Virus record (IMG/VR): IMGVR_UViG_3300005528_000235
Coordinates: 1 to 21,391 of that record
Source of the DNA: a virus
Reading direction: 5' to 3' (one strand)
DNA length: 21,391 bases
Shown: in pieces, positions 1,978-18,907 of the stretch
How the letters are laid out: every line of letters starts with the position of its first letter
How positions within the stretch are numbered: position 1 is the first letter of the stretch
The notes under the pieces: generated by a model
The model's input: only the letters and a program-made list of their open reading frames with translations
The model's database searches: none
Told to the model about the DNA's origin: nothing
Translations under genes and position numbers: made by a program

Positions 1978-2270
1978 GCGAAACATGGGTTGTGCGCGGT
2001 TGCTATGTTTACGCAATCGCCCAAACACAGCGCGAATGCCATGGTCACGGTGAATTCCCGGACGTACAGGCTATACGAAGGATCTACTCAAGACCGCCAT
2101 GGGAGCCATACTTACGGGAATATCCACCTTTGTTTTTGACAGAGAAAGAAGCGTGGGATTGGATCAAGAAGCAGAGTCACGCTTTTGATCTGGAACCAGT
2201 TAAATTGCGGCTGATGCTGCCGGAGAAAATTTGGCGAAAACTTCACTCTGAGGGTGAGACTGAATCCTGA
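1974..2270 (+). CDS. Hypothetical protein (98 aa), last gene of the plus-strand operon
   Basis: Unrecognised small soluble protein. The ATG overlaps the previous stop as ATGA. It begins with a beta-like segment (TWVVRGCYVYAIAQT), has a proline/aromatic middle (PPWEPYLREYPPLF), then a helix (LTEKEAWDWIKKQ) and a basic C-terminus (RLMLPEKIWRKLH). No motif identifies function. It is the last gene before a 780-nt gene-free stretch. Its TGA stop (2268-2270) forms the base of the long RNA stem described at 2268-2383, so the operon's 3' end is probably folded. Confidence 0.72.
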   Translation: MSETWVVRGCYVYAIAQTQRECHGHGEFPDVQAIRRIYSRPPWEPYLREYPPLFLTEKEAWDWIKKQSHAFDLEPVKLRLMLPEKIWRKLHSEGETES

Positions 2271-2383
2271 GGCCACTGGTTGACAAGGAGAAATCAGCGC
2301 GAATTACCGTCGGGCCTCCATCGGAGGGTTGTGTTGGGCTGGCAGCAACAGGGCTTACGTGGATCGCGCAACTGGTGGCCTCA
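2268..2383 (+). ncRNA. Candidate structured RNA, multi-branch
   Basis: Bases 2268-2282 pair with 2369-2383 over 15 consecutive positions: 13 Watson-Crick and 2 G-U pairs. The G-U pairs work only in plus-strand RNA; the other strand would have A-C mismatches. A second helix, CGCGA (2298-2302) with TCGCG (2364-2368), stacks directly on it. Inside are CCTCC-ATC-GGAGG (2315-2327) and a 5-bp helix GTTGT/GCAAC (2328-2332, 2345-2349). The 15-nt bulge 2283-2297 contains AAGGAG. No T-run follows, so it is not a simple terminator. It could be a 3' UTR element, a processed small RNA or an unusual termination structure. The fold is derived by hand. Confidence 0.45.
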
Positions 2384-2498
2384 GCTGCTCCCGGAATGCA
2401 GGGAAAAAAATTTGACGACTTCGCTCGGTAAATTGCTTGATCTCGAACTCTGGGCGGAAACTTGTGGGCTGACAACCTTATGGGTTGAGTAATTTGTA

Positions 2499-2517
2499 GG
2501 GATGGGTGGGGGATGGG
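2499..2517 (+). other. Canonical G-quadruplex motif 1
   Basis: The plus strand reads GGGATGGGTGGGGGATGGG: four G-tracts of at least three with loops of 2, 1 and 2 nt. This fits the standard G3+N1-7 pattern with very short loops, which favours stable folding. It lies in the first unit of the G-rich repeats, downstream of the plus-strand operon, so it would be present in any readthrough RNA. Confidence 0.6.
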
Positions 2518-2633
2518 TGCAAAGCTATAGCAGCGATTACTTACAAGTCTGAGAATCCGTAAAGATAGGTGGGGATGTAGAAAAAAGGTGGTGGAAGGGG
2601 GTCTTGCAAGTTAGACAATCTGTAAGGATGAGT

Positions 2634-2665
2634 GGGGGATGTGGGAAAAGGGTAGTCGAGGGGGG
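2634..2665 (+). other. Canonical G-quadruplex motif 2
   Basis: Four G-tracts (5, 3, 3 and 6 Gs at 2634-2638, 2643-2645, 2650-2652 and 2660-2665) are separated by loops of 4, 4 and 7 nt. The pattern meets the usual G3+N1-7 definition. It lies in the third G-rich repeat unit; the second unit has a shorter G-rich run near 2587-2601 that does not meet the rule as cleanly. Confidence 0.5.
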
Positions 2666-2670
2666 AAATT

Positions 2671-3008
2671 TTTAGAAAAGTAATTGCTTTTGGGTGGAGA
2701 AATAGGGAAAAAATTGCTAGAAGGGGGAGGCGCACCACCTCGCCCCTGGAACTACCCCACCCCACCCAACTTCCTGCCGACTTTCTATAGATTAGTCCGG
2801 CCGATAGCTTAACACTACCGGCCGGAAACTAGCATTATCTCCCGTAAACCTTAAGGCGGCACTCTGTAACGCTATTCTTGGTCTGACATTCTGACACCAG
2901 CGAGGCATCCTGCCGCGCAAGTTCAGAAACTAGACAGAATGTAAGATAGGTGGAGGCCACGATAATCAAAAGCCTGTTCATTGATTGAAACTAGGATGAT
3001 AGCAGGAA
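2671..3008. other. Gene-free convergent intergenic stretch
   Basis: No ORF with a plausible start and ribosome-binding site is visible here on either strand. The stretch holds an A/G-rich section (2671-2725), the hairpin at 2723-2746, the CCGGCCG dyad at 2797-2825 with a 15-nt loop, and the fourth diverged copy of the G-rich repeat near 2933-2957. It separates the plus-strand operon that ends at 2270 from the minus-strand unit that ends at 3054. Confidence 0.6.
2723..2746. terminator. GC-rich hairpin in the convergent gap
   Basis: GGGGGAGG (2723-2730) pairs with CCTC-G-CCCC (2738-2746) across a 7-nt loop, with one bulged base. No T-run follows on the plus strand. On the minus strand a run of six Ts starts about 12 nt past the stem, so a weak back-up terminator for readthrough from the minus-strand genes is possible. 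A second dyad with the same character, CCGGCCG/CGGCCGG, is at 2797-2825. Confidence 0.35.
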
Positions 3009-3039
3009 GGACAGGCCAACCCTAAAGGCTAGCCTGTCC
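3009..3039 (-). terminator. Strong hairpin after the 3054-3680 gene
   Basis: On the minus strand GGACAGGCTAGCCT pairs with GGGTTGGCCTGTCC around a three-base TTA loop: 14 pairs, of which three are G-T and therefore valid in minus-strand RNA. It begins 14 nt after the stop of the 3054-3680 gene. The following bases (TTCCTGCTATC) are only moderately T-rich, so termination efficiency is uncertain, but position and stem strength make it the likely end of this transcription unit. Confidence 0.65.
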
Positions 3040-3053
3040 GGTAGAGTTAGGTG

Positions 3054-3680
3054 TCAGGTCTCAGGCTGAACCTTAGGATCCTCGGTCGTCAGCCTCACCA
3101 TACCGTCAGTACTGACAGTAACGTAACGGCCCGAAAGGTTAGCCATAACCGTCAGAAGCCTGCTCAGGCTTTGCCAGGATTCCACCTTCCTGTAGACAGT
3201 GTGGTTAAGGTCTAGGATTGTCAGAATCCACTCGAGCGAGAGGGGATCCCCTGCTGACAGATTTGCGGGCAGTTGCACGCCATTGTAGGTTCCGTTAATC
3301 ACGTCGGTCAGGATCTGGGCGGAGATAACGGCACGCTTGGAGCTGCGGCGAATAGGGTTCTGGAGAGCCGATGCCTTGGCGGGTCTGCCGTGGGGGAGCT
3401 TCCGCGTTGCAAGGGCGAACGGTGGTTCCATGGCGCGGGCTGCTTCCCTGACCGCCTCTGGCCAGGTGATGGCACCATCACCAGAGCTGCCGCGCTGCCC
3501 CCTGACGGGCTCTCGCAGACTGGCGGGCACAGCGGCACCCATACCACGGAGGATCTCCAGCATTGCCGACTCGCGCCGCGCGGGCTTCTGCTCTGCGATG
3601 GGAGTCGCTCCAGCTTCTGGCGCGGCAGGCTTAATGATCTTGACGGCGCCATTGCGGCGGGACTGAGATGAGGATTGCAT
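3054..3680 (-). CDS. Hypothetical protein with a disordered N-terminus (208 aa)
   Basis: Unrecognised protein. The ATG at 3680 (MQSSSQSRRNG) is preferred; an in-frame GTG at 3746 would add 22 residues of translated intergenic sequence. Neither has a good ribosome-binding site. Residues 1-105 are rich in Ala, Pro, Arg and Ser and likely disordered and basic, as in DNA-associated phage proteins. Residues about 110-208 look folded: a basic helix (PIRRSSKRAVISAQILTDVI), LSLEWILTILDLNHTVYRKV, then a helix and a terminal hairpin (RYVTVSTDGMVRLTTED). The C-terminal part could be a helical DNA-binding domain, but no known family is evident. It follows 3764-4042 and probably shares its promoter. Confidence 0.68.
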   Translation of the reverse strand: MQSSSQSRRNGAVKIIKPAAPEAGATPIAEQKPARRESAMLEILRGMGAAVPASLREPVRGQRGSSGDGAITWPEAVREAARAMEPPFALATRKLPHGRPAKASALQNPIRRSSKRAVISAQILTDVINGTYNGVQLPANLSAGDPLSLEWILTILDLNHTVYRKVESWQSLSRLLTVMANLSGRYVTVSTDGMVRLTTEDPKVQPET

Positions 3681-3763
3681 GGTGTTAGTTGGGAGGGGTG
3701 ATAGGGGGGAGATTCCCCTAGGGTGCCAGACTTTAAGGACTGGCACAGTAGGGGAATCTATGA

Positions 3764-4042
3764 TTAGCGGTTGCGCGTTTTAATCAAGTAACCGTCAGAA
3801 TCAAGGCCATAGACTTTTCGACTCTCGCCAGTTAGCAGGCTAACGGCGTCCCGCGCCTCGTGCAAAAAGCGAAAAGCGCCATTAACGGTCAACCATCCGA
3901 CAATCCTAGTGTCGCCGAACGTATCTGTACGGCAGACTGCGGCACCATCGTTTGCCGCCTCCCATAGGCCTACGGCGAGGGGAGCAGTCCGACTCTCAGC
4001 GCAGGGGCCGTCAACTGGTGAGATAAAGGGGAATCCTTCCAT
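3764..4042 (-). CDS. Hypothetical protein (92 aa)
   Basis: Unrecognised protein. The ATG at 4042 (MEGFPFISPVDG) is preferred because a good promoter (4117-4145) lies about 75 nt upstream; the longer GTG start at 4168 would put the promoter inside the gene. Residues 25-55 look like two beta strands (GAAVCRTDTFGDTRIVGWLTV), followed by a helix with EARDAVSLLTGE and a short final strand (YGLDSDGYLIKTRNR). It would be the first gene of a two-gene unit with 3054-3680. The leader contains GGGAACC (4108-4114), which can pair with GGTTCCC just before the start codon. Confidence 0.62.
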   Translation of the reverse strand: MEGFPFISPVDGPCAESRTAPLAVGLWEAANDGAAVCRTDTFGDTRIVGWLTVNGAFRFLHEARDAVSLLTGESRKVYGLDSDGYLIKTRNR

Positions 4043-4116
4043 GGGGAACCTAGGGCTCTGGTTTGCGTGAAACCGGCGGTGAGAGAGACCTACGGCCCCG
4101 CCCCCCCGGTTCCCAT

Positions 4117-4145
4117 ATTGTACGGCATGGTGTCCCGGTTTGCAA
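4117..4145 (-). promoter_or_regulatory. Sigma-70-type promoter for 4042 and 3680
   Basis: On the minus strand TTGCAA (4145-4140) and TACAAT (4122-4117) are separated by exactly 17 nt. The predicted start site is near 4110, leaving a leader of about 68 nt before the ATG at 4042. The leader begins close to GGGAACC, complementary to the segment just upstream of the start codon, and contains long G-runs (GGGGGGGCGGGG). Confidence 0.6.
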
Positions 4146-4199
4146 GCGATCGGCCGGACGGATCCCACAAGCTACCAAACCGCCGATAGCCCATAAAGT

Positions 4200-4945
4200 T
4201 AGCTAGTGGCACAAAATAGCCCGCTAACTCACTCTATAGGCTGCGGAACCGTCAAAAATGCTCGCTGTAGCTTGTGACCGCGACAGTCTGCCGTACGTTC
4301 AGCGCAGATCAGGATGCGGCTCAAACAAAAACTAACACGAATCGCACCATACAGTTACGCTAACCTAACCGCCGTTACAGTTACGCTCGAAGCTAACAGC
4401 AAGCTCAGCACACCTTGCAGTTGAGCTAACGTCTCGCCGTTACAGTCTCGCCAGGACTGTTAGCCTGTCAGGCAGGTAGGCTCTCACGCTTTACAGTCAC
4501 GCTCCGCTGCTAGTCTCACCAGGATTGTAAGGTTACGCCTACCGTAGTTTCCGCACCATACAGTTACGGCACCTTCTACAGTCTGGCAGGTTAGCTTGTG
4601 ACGCTAGCAGGTAAGATCGGCCAGAGTTAGCTTAGTTGTAAGGTTAGCTAGTCTGGCAGGTTAGTTACGCTCATTCAGGTAAGTTTCGCCCGGATAGTGA
4701 ACACAACAGATACGCTAGGCTAGTGTATAGGTTAGCTTGCGCAAGTTACAGTTACAGATACTAGCCACAAGTTACAGTTACAGTAGCGCCAAGATTAACG
4801 TTCTGTCAGGTTAGGCTAGCGCCGGTCAAGTTAGGCTAGGCTCCGATCAAGCCAGTAGCCGATCAACCCAGCCAGCCTGTCAGATAGGTTAGGCTTCAGG
4901 TTAGCTAGTGGCCGCGGCGTTAAGTTAGCTGGCGCGATAGGTTCC
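4200..4945. repeat. Non-coding region packed with GTTAG, GTTAC and CTAG motifs
   Basis: About 750 nt without a credible gene. Short related words recur: GTTACAGTTAC (4373-4384, and twice within 4743-4784), GTCTGGCAGGTTAG (about 4580 and 4650), TCAGGTTAGGCTAG and TCAAGTTAGGCTAG (4806-4840), and GGTTAGCTAG. The tetranucleotide CTAG, usually rare in bacterial and many phage genomes, occurs about ten times. The ORF on the minus strand at 4831-5100 only reads through these repeats. The region runs directly into the iteron array, whose units also end in GTTAG-like sequence, so it may be a decayed extension of it. No function is established. Confidence 0.65.
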
Positions 4946-4950
4946 GCCAG

Positions 4951-5252
4951 GGAATGCAACTTAGCGGCGCAGCAAGCTAGCAATGAATGCAGTTGACAGG
5001 GGCGAATGCAACTCAGTGGTGAATGCAAGTTAGTAGTGAATGCAACTTGCGGGTGAATGCAAGTTAGACATGAATGGCATTTAGCAAGGGTGAATGGCAT
5101 TTATACATGAATGGCAAGCTAGCAGTGAATGCAACTTTACGCATGAATGGCAAATTGACATGAATGGCATTTAGCAACGTGAATGGCAAGTTAGTGTGAA
5201 TGGCCTCCAAGCGTGTGAATGGCGAAACCGATCAACAAGGGGAGTGAATGTT
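4951..5252 (+). repeat. Iteron-like array, about 16 units, TGAATG core
   Basis: TGAATG or a one-base variant starts at 4951 (GGAATG), 4984, 5003, 5020, 5037, 5054, 5071, 5091, 5108, 5126, 5144, 5161, 5180, 5197, 5216 and 5245. From 4984 to 5216 the spacing is 17-20 nt, most often exactly 17. Two subtypes are visible: TGAATGCAA-TTAG (4984-5054 and 5126) and TGAATGGCA-TTAG (5071-5108 and 5144-5216). The last unit overlaps the stop codon of the winged-helix gene 5251-5601. Direct repeats of 17-22 bp next to a small DNA-binding gene are typical of iteron origins of plasmids and some phages, so this is a candidate origin or autoregulatory site. Confidence 0.8.
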
Positions 5253-5601
5253 ACTTTCCTTGCTCGCCAGCTTCAATCCAGAGCCTGTACTTAAATGTTC
5301 GACGTTGAGGTGATGGAGTAACAGTGAATGTTGGATCAACCATGAATCCAACCATGTCCTTGTACTTTACTTTGCGAATGTAATTTAACTTGCGCAGCTT
5401 AGCAAGTGAGCGATAGGTAGCCTTGAAATGAAAGCCAAGATTCTCAGATAGTTGCGCTGGCGTCAAGCCAATGATGATGCGAGAGTTGGACAGGATTACA
5501 AGGTAGAGAAGAATGGTAAGGTCATTACCAGCAATGCCAAGTAGTTTACGGTTGCAGATAATTGATTGCATACGCTGTTCAGGACGCTGAGGTTTGTTCA
5601 T
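5251..5601 (-). CDS. RepL-like winged-helix DNA-binding protein, candidate replication initiator
   Basis: A basic 116-residue protein. GLTPAQLSENLGFHFKATYRSLAKLRKLNYI (residues 45-75) is a clear helix-turn-helix with a recognition helix, followed by a wing (RKVKYKDMVGFMVDP, residues 76-90). The ending GFMVDPTFTV resembles the YMINP segment of RepL-type plasmid replication proteins (family knowledge, from memory). GAAGG lies 7 nt before the ATG, supporting this start. The gene is alone between a dyad at 5827-5867 and the iteron array that begins at its stop codon. It may bind the iterons as initiator or as repressor; the sequence alone cannot separate these. A general transcription regulator is the main alternative. 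Confidence 0.75.
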   Translation of the reverse strand: MNKPQRPEQRMQSIICNRKLLGIAGNDLTILLYLVILSNSRIIIGLTPAQLSENLGFHFKATYRSLAKLRKLNYIRKVKYKDMVGFMVDPTFTVTPSPQRRTFKYRLWIEAGEQGK

Positions 5602-5895
5602 TTTACAGCCTTCAGCCAGCTTGGCAGGGAGGGAACGTTTTGTAGAAAACAGCGTACCATAGAACCCAGTCAGGGACTGGCCCGGTCATTCCACTTTGTA
5701 GAATATCTGAGTTTGAGATCCCTTGCGCCGCAGTCGATCTGAGGTCGTGCTTTTATACCAGTTAGATGGGTAAGGAACAGGGGGGTCTGGCAGGTAGGCG
5801 GTCAGGTAGGCAGGGGGGTCGCGAAGTACAGGTACTCAGCTGGACGTGCCGTTAATGAGTACCTGTAAGTTTGCTGACGTGCAGACAAAAGTTAC
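5602..5895. other. Intergenic control region with hairpins and direct repeats
   Basis: No gene is visible. It holds CCAGTC-AGG-GACTGG (5666-5680), a TATAAA on the minus strand near 5750 with no convincing -35, a G-rich direct repeat (two CAGGTAGGC copies between GGGGGG runs, about 5778-5820), and the perfect 12-bp dyad at 5827-5867. The promoter of the 5251-5601 gene should lie here, but I cannot assign it with confidence. Confidence 0.5.
5827..5867. promoter_or_regulatory. Perfect 12-bp inverted repeat
   Basis: TACAGGTACTCA (5827-5838) is repeated inverted without mismatch as TGAGTACCTGTA (5856-5867), with 17 nt between. It lies 28 nt past the stop of the small-terminase-like gene and about 225 nt upstream of the winged-helix gene, both on the minus strand. 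No T-run follows the stem on either strand, which argues against a standard terminator. It could be an operator or an mRNA 3'-end stem. Confidence 0.5.
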
Positions 5896-6666
5896 TTAGT
5901 CAACTTCAGACTCTTCGATTGCTGCAAGTAACTGGTCTACACCAAGTGCATTACTTTGTAGATTCTTTCCTACTTCAGCCAACTTGGATGCTGCATTTAA
6001 CATTGAGGGAAGATCACGTACATCGAGATCCTGTTCACTATCCAGCAATTTAGTCAACTTGCGATCTGCCAGGTATGCGATACGTGCTGCATTTAGGCTA
6101 AGTTGATGGCCAATCTGTTCCTGCTGCTCACGGTATGCTTCCAGTCTGTTAAGATGCTTCTGATGACGAGCATCCTGTACTTCATTTAACTTTTTGCTGA
6201 GTTGGTACCTATCAAAATCCCCCACCCTAACCAACCAGTTATTGCGTTTAGCTACTTGTTGTAGTTTAGAAATGCTGAAATTGGTAATCTGGGATACATA
6301 TTGTAGTGAACGTCCCCCACCCAACCTACAATAACAGGAGAACAATTCAAATTCTTTATCAGACTCAGAAGGTGCAAGGACACTATTTTTCAACCAAGTA
6401 GCATTACGGTTAGTGGTAGTGGAGGTAGTGAGGCTAGTGTTTTCCGAGAGGTTGTTACTTTGTTGGGGGGTGTTATTTGCTACATTAAGAGTATCAGTAT
6501 TGACGGTAGAGGGAGCTAGATGTTCAGTTTCTGTAAGCTCCTCACTATTTAATTCCTGTTCATCTACAAGTTCACCGAACTCATTGGTTGTTAAGTTAAT
6601 AGCATCATTTTCGATTTCTTCTGCATTTTGGAGTAGTTCCTCGAAATTAAAGTCAGAAGGTTCCAC
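5896..6666 (-). CDS. Terminase small-subunit-like DNA-binding protein (256 aa)
   Basis: Residues 1-95 are acidic and rich in Asn, Thr and Ser, probably disordered. Residues about 104-152 (KEFELFSCYCRLGGGRSLQ, then ISKLQQVAKRNNWLVRVGDFDRYQ) match a helix-turn-helix pattern common in phage small terminases and related proteins: a short helix, GxGRSL, a recognition helix and W-xR-xxxDR. Residues 155-256 are helical and charged, suited to oligomerisation. In the packaging motor the small subunit recognises phage DNA and the large subunit cuts and pumps; no large subunit lies in this window, so the role is inferred from the N-terminal domain pattern. It has its own promoter at 6690-6719. Another DNA-binding role is possible. 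Confidence 0.65.
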   Translation of the reverse strand: MEPSDFNFEELLQNAEEIENDAINLTTNEFGELVDEQELNSEELTETEHLAPSTVNTDTLNVANNTPQQSNNLSENTSLTTSTTTNRNATWLKNSVLAPSESDKEFELFSCYCRLGGGRSLQYVSQITNFSISKLQQVAKRNNWLVRVGDFDRYQLSKKLNEVQDARHQKHLNRLEAYREQQEQIGHQLSLNAARIAYLADRKLTKLLDSEQDLDVRDLPSMLNAASKLAEVGKNLQSNALGVDQLLAAIEESEVD

Positions 6667-6689
6667 GGTTAGTGTTCGGGTGCTTACGT

Positions 6690-6719
6690 ATTCTACGGCG
6701 GGAATCTGACAGCTGTCAA
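6690..6719 (-). promoter_or_regulatory. Sigma-70-type promoter overlapping a 12-bp palindrome
   Basis: The minus strand has TTGACA (6719-6714) and TAGAAT (6695-6690) with an 18-nt spacer; transcription would start near 6683, some 17 nt before the ATG at 6666. The -35 hexamer overlaps the perfect palindrome TGACAGCTGTCA (6707-6718), a plausible operator. The operon 1 terminator ends just upstream, so this gene appears insulated and separately controlled. Confidence 0.6.
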
Positions 6720-10543: not shown

Positions 10544-10653
10544 GATGCAAGTAGCAAGTGAACAAGCTACGCAGAACAGTTAAGCTGCTGCGCAGTCAAC
10601 GTCAGAAGTTACAGCTAAGTGATTAACTTAGTTAGAAACTTAAGACAGCCAGC

Positions 10654-10740
10654 GGGAGATACAATCTCCCCACCGCTTGATGCCATGATACCCGATCCGC
10701 CCGGATCTGTCAAGTCGCATGTAACGGAAAAGTAACACGC
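10654..10740 (-). promoter_or_regulatory. Promoter cassette copy 1, drives operon 1
   Basis: On the minus strand: TTGACA (10713-10708), a 17-nt spacer, TATCAT (10690-10685), then GGCATCAAGCGG and a perfect leader hairpin, GGGAGAT/ATCTCCC with a 3-nt loop (10654-10670). Upstream are two GTTAC words 11 bp apart (10736-10732 and 10725-10721). A 31-nt stretch, 10709-10739, is identical in copy 2. Further upstream, 10781-10802 carries two TTAAAA words 11 bp apart, also shared with copy 2. The leader also has CTAAGT/ACTTAG, which can form a second hairpin. Confidence 0.88.
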
Positions 10741-15455: not shown

Positions 15456-15525
15456 AGAAATGAAGTAGTTGAGTGAAGAAGTTACAACTAAGCGATCAGC
15501 TCAGTTAGAAACTTAGACAGCTGGC

Positions 15526-15613
15526 GAGAAGGTACACCCTCCCCACCGCTTGATGCCATTGTACCGCATCCGACCTTGAAGGTCAAGTCGCATGTAACGG
15601 AAAAGTAACACGG
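15526..15613 (-). promoter_or_regulatory. Promoter cassette copy 2, drives operon 2
   Basis: On the minus strand: TTGACC (15586-15581), a 17-nt spacer, TACAAT (15563-15558), GGCATCAAGCGG, then a leader hairpin GGGAGGG/CCTTCTC around TGTA (15543-15526; two pairs are G-U). The upstream 31 nt (15582-15612) match copy 1 exactly, including GTTAC words 11 bp apart. The TTAAAA pair is at 15633-15653. Farther upstream, GCGGCCTT/AAGGCCGC (15671-15678 and 15623-15630) forms a long-range dyad right after the operon 3 stop and may mark its end. Confidence 0.88.
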
Positions 15614-18832: not shown

Positions 18833-18851
18833 GCAGTAACTTTGGCAGAAG

Positions 18852-18896
18852 CTCAAGCTAGAAACTCAAGTTAGAAACTCAAGCTAGAAACTTAAG
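18852..18896 (-). repeat. Three 13-bp tandem repeats in the operon 3 leader
   Basis: The plus strand has CTCAAGCTAGAAA, CTCAAGTTAGAAA and CTCAAGCTAGAAA in tandem from 18852 to 18890, with a partial fourth unit (CTTAAG) to 18896. On the transcript this is TTTCTAGCTTGAG repeated. Single copies of the same word (AAGTTTCTAACT) occur at the matching place in leaders 1 and 2, so it is an expanded version of a shared leader element. Confidence 0.8.
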
Positions 18897-18907
18897 CGGT
18901 GGCACGC

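Follow-up and report, generated by a model that had tools for sequence, protein, structure and literature searches.

An array of short repeats with the constant core CATTCAY is a real, conserved repeat family of probable cyanophages, and we tentatively read it, at a probability of roughly 45%, as a polar, cis-acting packaging-recognition site of the pac/cosB kind. The window, that is, the whole stretch of DNA analysed, is a 21,391-base virus record and forms part of the circular map of a tailed phage. Its features around the array are as follows.

4169 to 4950, no strand: non-coding; short degenerate repeats of the GTTAG/GTTACAG type, next to the array
4951 to 5250, plus strand: the array of 16 GAATG cores, RTGAATG on this strand and CATTCAY on the strand of the neighbouring genes; kept in relatives
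5251 to 5601, minus strand: gene of a 116-aa winged-helix protein, RepL- or initiator-like only via its homologues
5827 to 5867, no strand: perfect 12-nt inverted repeat with a 17-nt loop, between the TerS and winged-helix genes; possibly a terminator or operator
5896 to 6666, minus strand: gene of TerS, the terminase small subunit, 256 aa (phrog_6299, E 6.6e-11; the homologue at locus L178 matches annotated cyanophage TerS)

The preliminary description had reported a non-coding array in two interspersed subtypes, spaced at 17-20 nt and abutting a RepL-like winged-helix gene. The plus strand of 4951-5250 carries sixteen GAATG cores, of which 14 are TGAATG, one GGAATG (4951) and one CGAATG (5003). 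Dinucleotide shuffling of the stretch, repeated 2000 times, never produced more than 5 copies of TGAATG (mean, 0.48) against the 14 observed, which confirms that the array is real. Seven units are GAATGC and eight GAATGGC, the last unit being GAATGTT. The 15 gaps measure 33, 19, 17, 17, 17, 17, 20, 17, 18, 18, 17, 19, 17, 19, and 29 nt, so that seven equal 17 and 13 fall within 17-20; the 17-nt spacing is particular to this phage, and relatives keep only the 7-nt core. Each of the six frames contains 4-10 stops across the array, in agreement with a non-coding setting, and an 89-aa minus-strand ORF (4831-5100, a mechanical call) overlaps half of it. The last unit (5245) extends into the stop codon of the 116-aa gene. 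The abutment is thus direct, but at the 3' end of the gene, opposite to the promoter side.

The window is 100% identical, over the aligned stretches, to IMGVR_UViG_3300027806_000035 (86,446 bases) and IMGVR_UViG_3300031758_000836 (18,325 bases), and the overlaps of the three records close a circle with a computed length of 98,597 bases (~98.6 kb). The map encodes TerL and portal, a major head protein, an endolysin, a tail fibre, and a DnaB helicase, as well as a lambda-type exonuclease, a recombinase, a sigma factor, a thymidylate synthase, and a dCTP deaminase; this tailed-phage map bears out the phage setting proposed earlier. The best annotated match of its TerL is that of KBS-S-2A (41%), and most of the 849 matches belong to phages of other bacteria. 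At locus L178, the TerS homologue matches the annotated TerS of S-CBS2, PSS2, and S-CRES phages only, and the winged-helix homologue matches S-SRP02 at 27% and, weakly, Erwinia phage Pavtok. Judged from these annotated relatives, the window virus is probably a cyanophage with a cyanobacterial host. The array was absent from the whole records of S-SRP02, S-2L, and KBS-S-2A and from the examined stretches of S-CBS2, PSS2, S-CRES3, and Pavtok. Two relatives, G046 (98,034 bases) and G018 (79,539 bases), overlap themselves at their ends by 127 and 123 bases; this circular closure, with ends far from the array, is compatible with permuted genomes.

Fifty loci were fetched from viral contigs by TerS alone, blind to the array. 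They include two records of the window's phage (L191 and L192), of which L191 is too short downstream and was not counted. All 49 loci with downstream sequence have the order TerS, winged helix, CATTC cluster, and the winged-helix match after TerS has an E value of 1.2e-18 or better in each; the profile was built from 11 sequences (the window and ten relatives), which match by construction. The cluster lies on the coding strand, with 6-24 copies of CATTC per 300 nt, and GAATG there does not exceed 4 per 300 nt. After near-duplicates were merged, 36 of 38 distinct loci scored above every one of 200 shuffles over the 500 nt around the end of the gene, and the exceptions (L195 and L234) have clusters farther downstream. 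CATTC is the commonest 5-mer in 8 of the 38 loci and reaches at least five copies in 34, the overlapping ATTCA in 35. It is followed by A in 97% and then by T or C in 90%, which gives the constant core CATTCAY. The spacing varies from 17-20 nt in the window to 13/4/17, 14, 18, 22, 29-30 nt, or irregular elsewhere; gaps in relatives range from 4 to more than 60 nt, and most relatives are without regular 17-22 nt direct repeats.

Long flanks were available for 10 relatives, and in 7 of them TerS is followed by the winged helix, the array with non-coding repeats, TerL, and portal, the last two named by likeness to those of the window phage. In the window phage itself, the array is close to TerS and TerL lies about 14 kb off. 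Relatives likewise have low-complexity stretches 3' of the array, which differ in sequence and period: a clear period of 7 (GGTTACA/CCTTGCA type) was seen in L194-L204 and of 6 in L233 and L219, while 4169-4950 of the window has a weak period of 5, and similar post-array repeats were noted for L174-L180. These short-period repeats may perhaps serve strand opening or reflect slippage.

The array also occurs without the winged-helix gene. A scan for GCCATTCA three times yielded at least 119 viral loci; this selection demands GCC before ATTCA, so the GC flank of the units is partly forced, and arrays of 3-4 copies possibly include chance ones. Among the matches listed, the winged-helix gene was detected in 7 of the 119 loci, the same seven that carry the window-type TerS; L377 is apparently the window's phage (16 units, identical gene offsets), and L314 is a first-group relative with its neighbours cut off. 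The remaining 112 largely undo the tie between array and gene on which the earlier proposal depended, although the phages concerned are not wholly unrelated, having TerL, portal, and head genes in common. Second-group arrays were counted in at least 92 loci, with duplicates not merged, and the first group comprises 38 distinct loci. The matches listed by the first scan, for TGAATG three times, also included microsatellites and unrelated repeats, L036, L060, and L125 among them, which were excluded by eye.

Among the matches listed, 47 of the 119 loci have an array that starts -65 to +108 nt from an exonuclease stop codon and, without a winged helix, seven have one at the stop of a TerS-like gene. 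TerL lies 1.1-6.7 kb downstream in 58 (55 on the same strand, 3 on the opposite one), and 56 of these 58 have no winged helix; in 61 no TerL was seen, some of the fetched stretches being short. The reversed motif in the same collection gave TerL in 3 of 33 loci, two of them alike, and the same motif in bacterial genomes gave it in 0 of 119 among the matches listed. The TerL profile was made from array loci and searched the controls less sensitively, which favours low control counts; a plain three-query TerL search returned the same 58 loci in the motif sample, again among the matches listed. At L166 and L126, a TerS-like gene leads straight into a CATTCA array, and no winged helix is seen. Six distant TerL relatives, picked by TerL only, showed a cluster in L165 (a contig that the motif sample contains as L294) and L166 and none in the other four, some of which are short upstream.

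Both groups share TerL, portal, the major head protein, and a 112-aa protein. The 112-aa protein (phrog_7595; L008 4043-4381 and L087 3425-3703) is conserved to an unusual degree between them, its best pair reaching 73% over 82 residues. The TerS-like family of the second group had no PHROG match and no telling Pfam match, and no profile link between it and the window TerS was found. Its model (pLDDT 75) aligned with 4xvn, a solved small terminase, at Z 5.1 over 101 residues, tied with unrelated folds, and Foldseek returned no match at E 0.001 or better.

With TerL, portal, and head genes common to the two groups, the array goes with the packaging and head module rather than with the winged helix. 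Motif, polarity, and the vicinity of packaging genes stay constant while the neighbours change, which makes the winged helix unlikely as the sole reader and favours packaging. The same reading is favoured by the excess of downstream TerL over both controls, by the arrays directly after TerS-like genes (L166, L126, and the seven motif loci), by the TerS-selected loci, where all 49 are in order, and by the 7 of 10 long-flanked relatives with the array between TerS and TerL. As with pac or cosB sites, the array is located at terminase genes and generally occurs once per genome. Gaps as short as 4 nt are unlike the binding of one protein per iteron. The packaging reading is weakened by the winged helix, always present and initiator-like in one group; by the second group, whose commonest array neighbour is an exonuclease gene and not TerS; by the TerS-like family of that group, for which profile and fold searches gave no decisive match; and by the 3 of 58 TerL genes on the opposite strand and the 61 of 119 loci without TerL, both among the matches listed. 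If the array is a packaging site, the many 7-nt CATTCAY cores on the late-gene strand would be contacted jointly by the terminase, a TerS ring with TerL, perhaps joined at the array by the winged helix or another accessory protein, or by a host factor. Packaging of the concatemer would then begin at the array and proceed towards TerL and the head genes. Terminase binding, cutting, and this direction are what we infer from the arrangement.

One cluster per genome was found in G001 (the window's phage), G010, G018, and G046, and no second cluster of at least five cores occurs in the stretches making up the ~98.6 kb map. The exceptions are L126, which has two arrays, and G045, which has a second cluster of different sequence. 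The L126 arrays lie at 5900-6041 and 3313-3457; one of them adjoins the 3' end of an exonuclease gene, and the other follows a TerS-like gene. At the start of G045 (L287 1-600, a contig end), a GAATG cluster of TTCAGAATGGCGCC-type units, ~15-30 nt, probably represents coding repeats. Contig ends were also considered as evidence of a terminus: within 1 kb of the TerS stop, 13 ends lie upstream and 1 downstream, with ~3 expected on each side, a pattern that database selection can cause, and the 29 contigs of at least 20 kb have 2 ends upstream and 0 downstream. This evidence was set aside as suggestive but biased by that selection.

Direct repeats at a packaging site have a precedent that also favours the packaging reading: in the passages of the report cited, SPP1 pac has direct repeats, in three sets, where the TerS gene begins (PMC4737164). 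The array resembles the headful pac of SPP1 and P22 in being a cis site at terminase genes; it differs in that its 7-nt core is repeated 6-24 times per 300 nt and lies where the gene following TerS ends, whereas the SPP1 repeats are within TerS. Another headful-type pac site is that of P1. In lambda cosB, the R sites are bound by the winged-helix TerS, so cosB likewise combines several repeats with a winged-helix packaging protein as reader. The array differs from it in having many more copies and a shorter core, and its winged helix is encoded separately from TerS; a cohesive-end site belongs to cosB. In vitro, TerS-pac binding is mostly weak or sequence-independent, according to the cited part of PMC9611059.

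A bolder proposal, which we rate as doubtful, is that the CATTCAY array is a code common to phages that show no detectable relationship between their TerS-position proteins, with a reader other than a family-specific TerS. Such a reader might be TerL, some accessory protein, or a factor of the host, and the winged helix would be an add-on of one lineage. If this were true, packaging sites could be read from raw genomes. No earlier description of a CATTCAY motif array was found in the literature searched, mostly titles and abstract openings. The recognition by terminase of its own genome is poorly understood, and a countable, conserved motif array offers a sequence handle on it. With the natural presence or absence of the neighbouring DNA-binding gene, simple experiments would separate packaging from replication, and the genome starts of uncultured, probably cyanobacterial phages could become predictable.

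The nature of the winged helix bears on the main rival reading, a replication origin. Structure prediction confidently assigns the 116-aa protein a winged-helix fold plus a C-terminal helix (pLDDT 93.8). None of its own matches reaches significance, the best being at E 0.055 in Pfam and E 0.067 in PHROG. It shares size and fold with RepL (PF05732) but has no RepL match up to E 1. Of 34 homologues, eight match phrog_428 and five phrog_270 (replication initiation protein), five HTH_36, and four RepL, all at E 0.01 or better (best RepL E 3e-6; L178 scores 17.6 bits against a gathering score of 20.3). The label RepL-like thus suits the homologues, through weak matches to RepL and initiator families, and not the window protein itself. 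A homologue also matches the 'replication initiation protein' of Erwinia phage Pavtok (E 7e-3), and the viral fold matches include one RepL. VIA-align returned generic winged helices, all tied or close to a tie (Zur, Z 8.7; the initiator domains 4pql, 8.2, and 4pt7, 7.5; DnaD, 7.4), and Foldseek against solved structures gave no match at E 0.001. Sequence-profile matches in the PDB were SarX (E 2.2e-6) and TubR (4asn, E 5.8e-4). The window's own protein had no match in phages, and one homologue used as query had none in plasmids. On sequence and model grounds, an initiator role is plausible.

In the origin reading, this RepL-like protein would bind the repeats as initiator, DnaB would be loaded on the adjoining repetitive stretch, and the host polymerase would copy the genome; we regard this as rather unlikely. 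Beyond the initiator-family and tied fold matches, it draws on the winged-helix gene, which directly precedes the array in all 49 TerS-selected loci and into whose 3' coding end the repeats run in several, and on DnaB in 14 of 15 records with DNA_pol_A in 0 of 15, which makes a host-dependent start plausible. Iteron origins, such as that bound by lambda O, and those of iteron plasmids have 17-22 nt direct repeats at regular spacing, and the window array resembles them in having 13 of 15 gaps of 17-20 nt and a small winged-helix gene adjoining. Several observations speak against an origin: the spacing in relatives is irregular, the core stays constant although their winged-helix proteins are mostly 13-34% identical to the window's, DnaB is far from the array, and the gene accompanies the array in all TerS-selected loci but in only 7 of the 119 motif loci among the matches listed. 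GC skew, which is weak evidence of an origin in phages and had been put forward as a check, does not place a minimum at the site. Near the array, 10 of 11 genomes change from plus to minus and so have a local maximum there; for the window genome, the detrended skew peaks at 6.5 kb, also a maximum and within a rough random-walk estimate. G018 has its detrended maximum ~1 kb from the array, G046, G045, and G010 have their extremes elsewhere, and the minima of G046 and G045 are ~20 kb away. Being a maximum, within the random-walk estimate and inconsistent across relatives, the skew was discarded as origin evidence.

That the same core stands beside differing neighbour genes, an exonuclease gene in 47 of the 119 loci among the matches listed, would also suit a nucleoid, recombination, or regulatory protein of a shared host that the phage recruits or titrates; with the host itself only inferred and the listed bacterial-genome matches taxonomically scattered, we consider such an array improbable. 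Still less probable is a transcriptional or 3' RNA element that controls late genes or acts in the transcript. The array always lies on the sense strand of the preceding gene and upstream of TerL, but in the second group it is flanked by convergent genes, the exonuclease forward and a 148-aa ORF family whose 57 members all lie on the other strand, and no Rfam match was found within 2200-6700 of the window. The convergent genes make a promoter region, whether for late-gene or autoregulatory control, unlikely, and the autoregulatory array proposed earlier is further disfavoured by its place at the 3' end of the gene where a promoter position is expected. We give very little credence to a phage-plasmid partition site at which the winged helix would act as a centromere protein of the TubR kind: TubR is among the PDB profile matches, below SarX, but most array-bearing loci among the matches listed have no winged helix, and in 15 records, many of them fragments, neither ParA-type (PF13614) matches over the cut-off nor tubulin (PF00091) were found. 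PF13614 gave five weak matches, all within DnaB matches. A search of bacterial genomes for TerS relatives matched the pattern in 223 stretches and confirmed 0, so the earlier suggestion of a phage-plasmid is not upheld.

Other repeats in the window are unrelated to the CATTCA core: two 64-nt tandem units at 2540-2665 and four 13-nt tandem units at 18847-18897. A 138-nt stretch occurs twice (10604-10739 and 15477-15612; 83% identity). The window's phage also carries a transposase gene (phrog_506, E 6.5e-131; L007 6047-7255) inside its tail-gene region.
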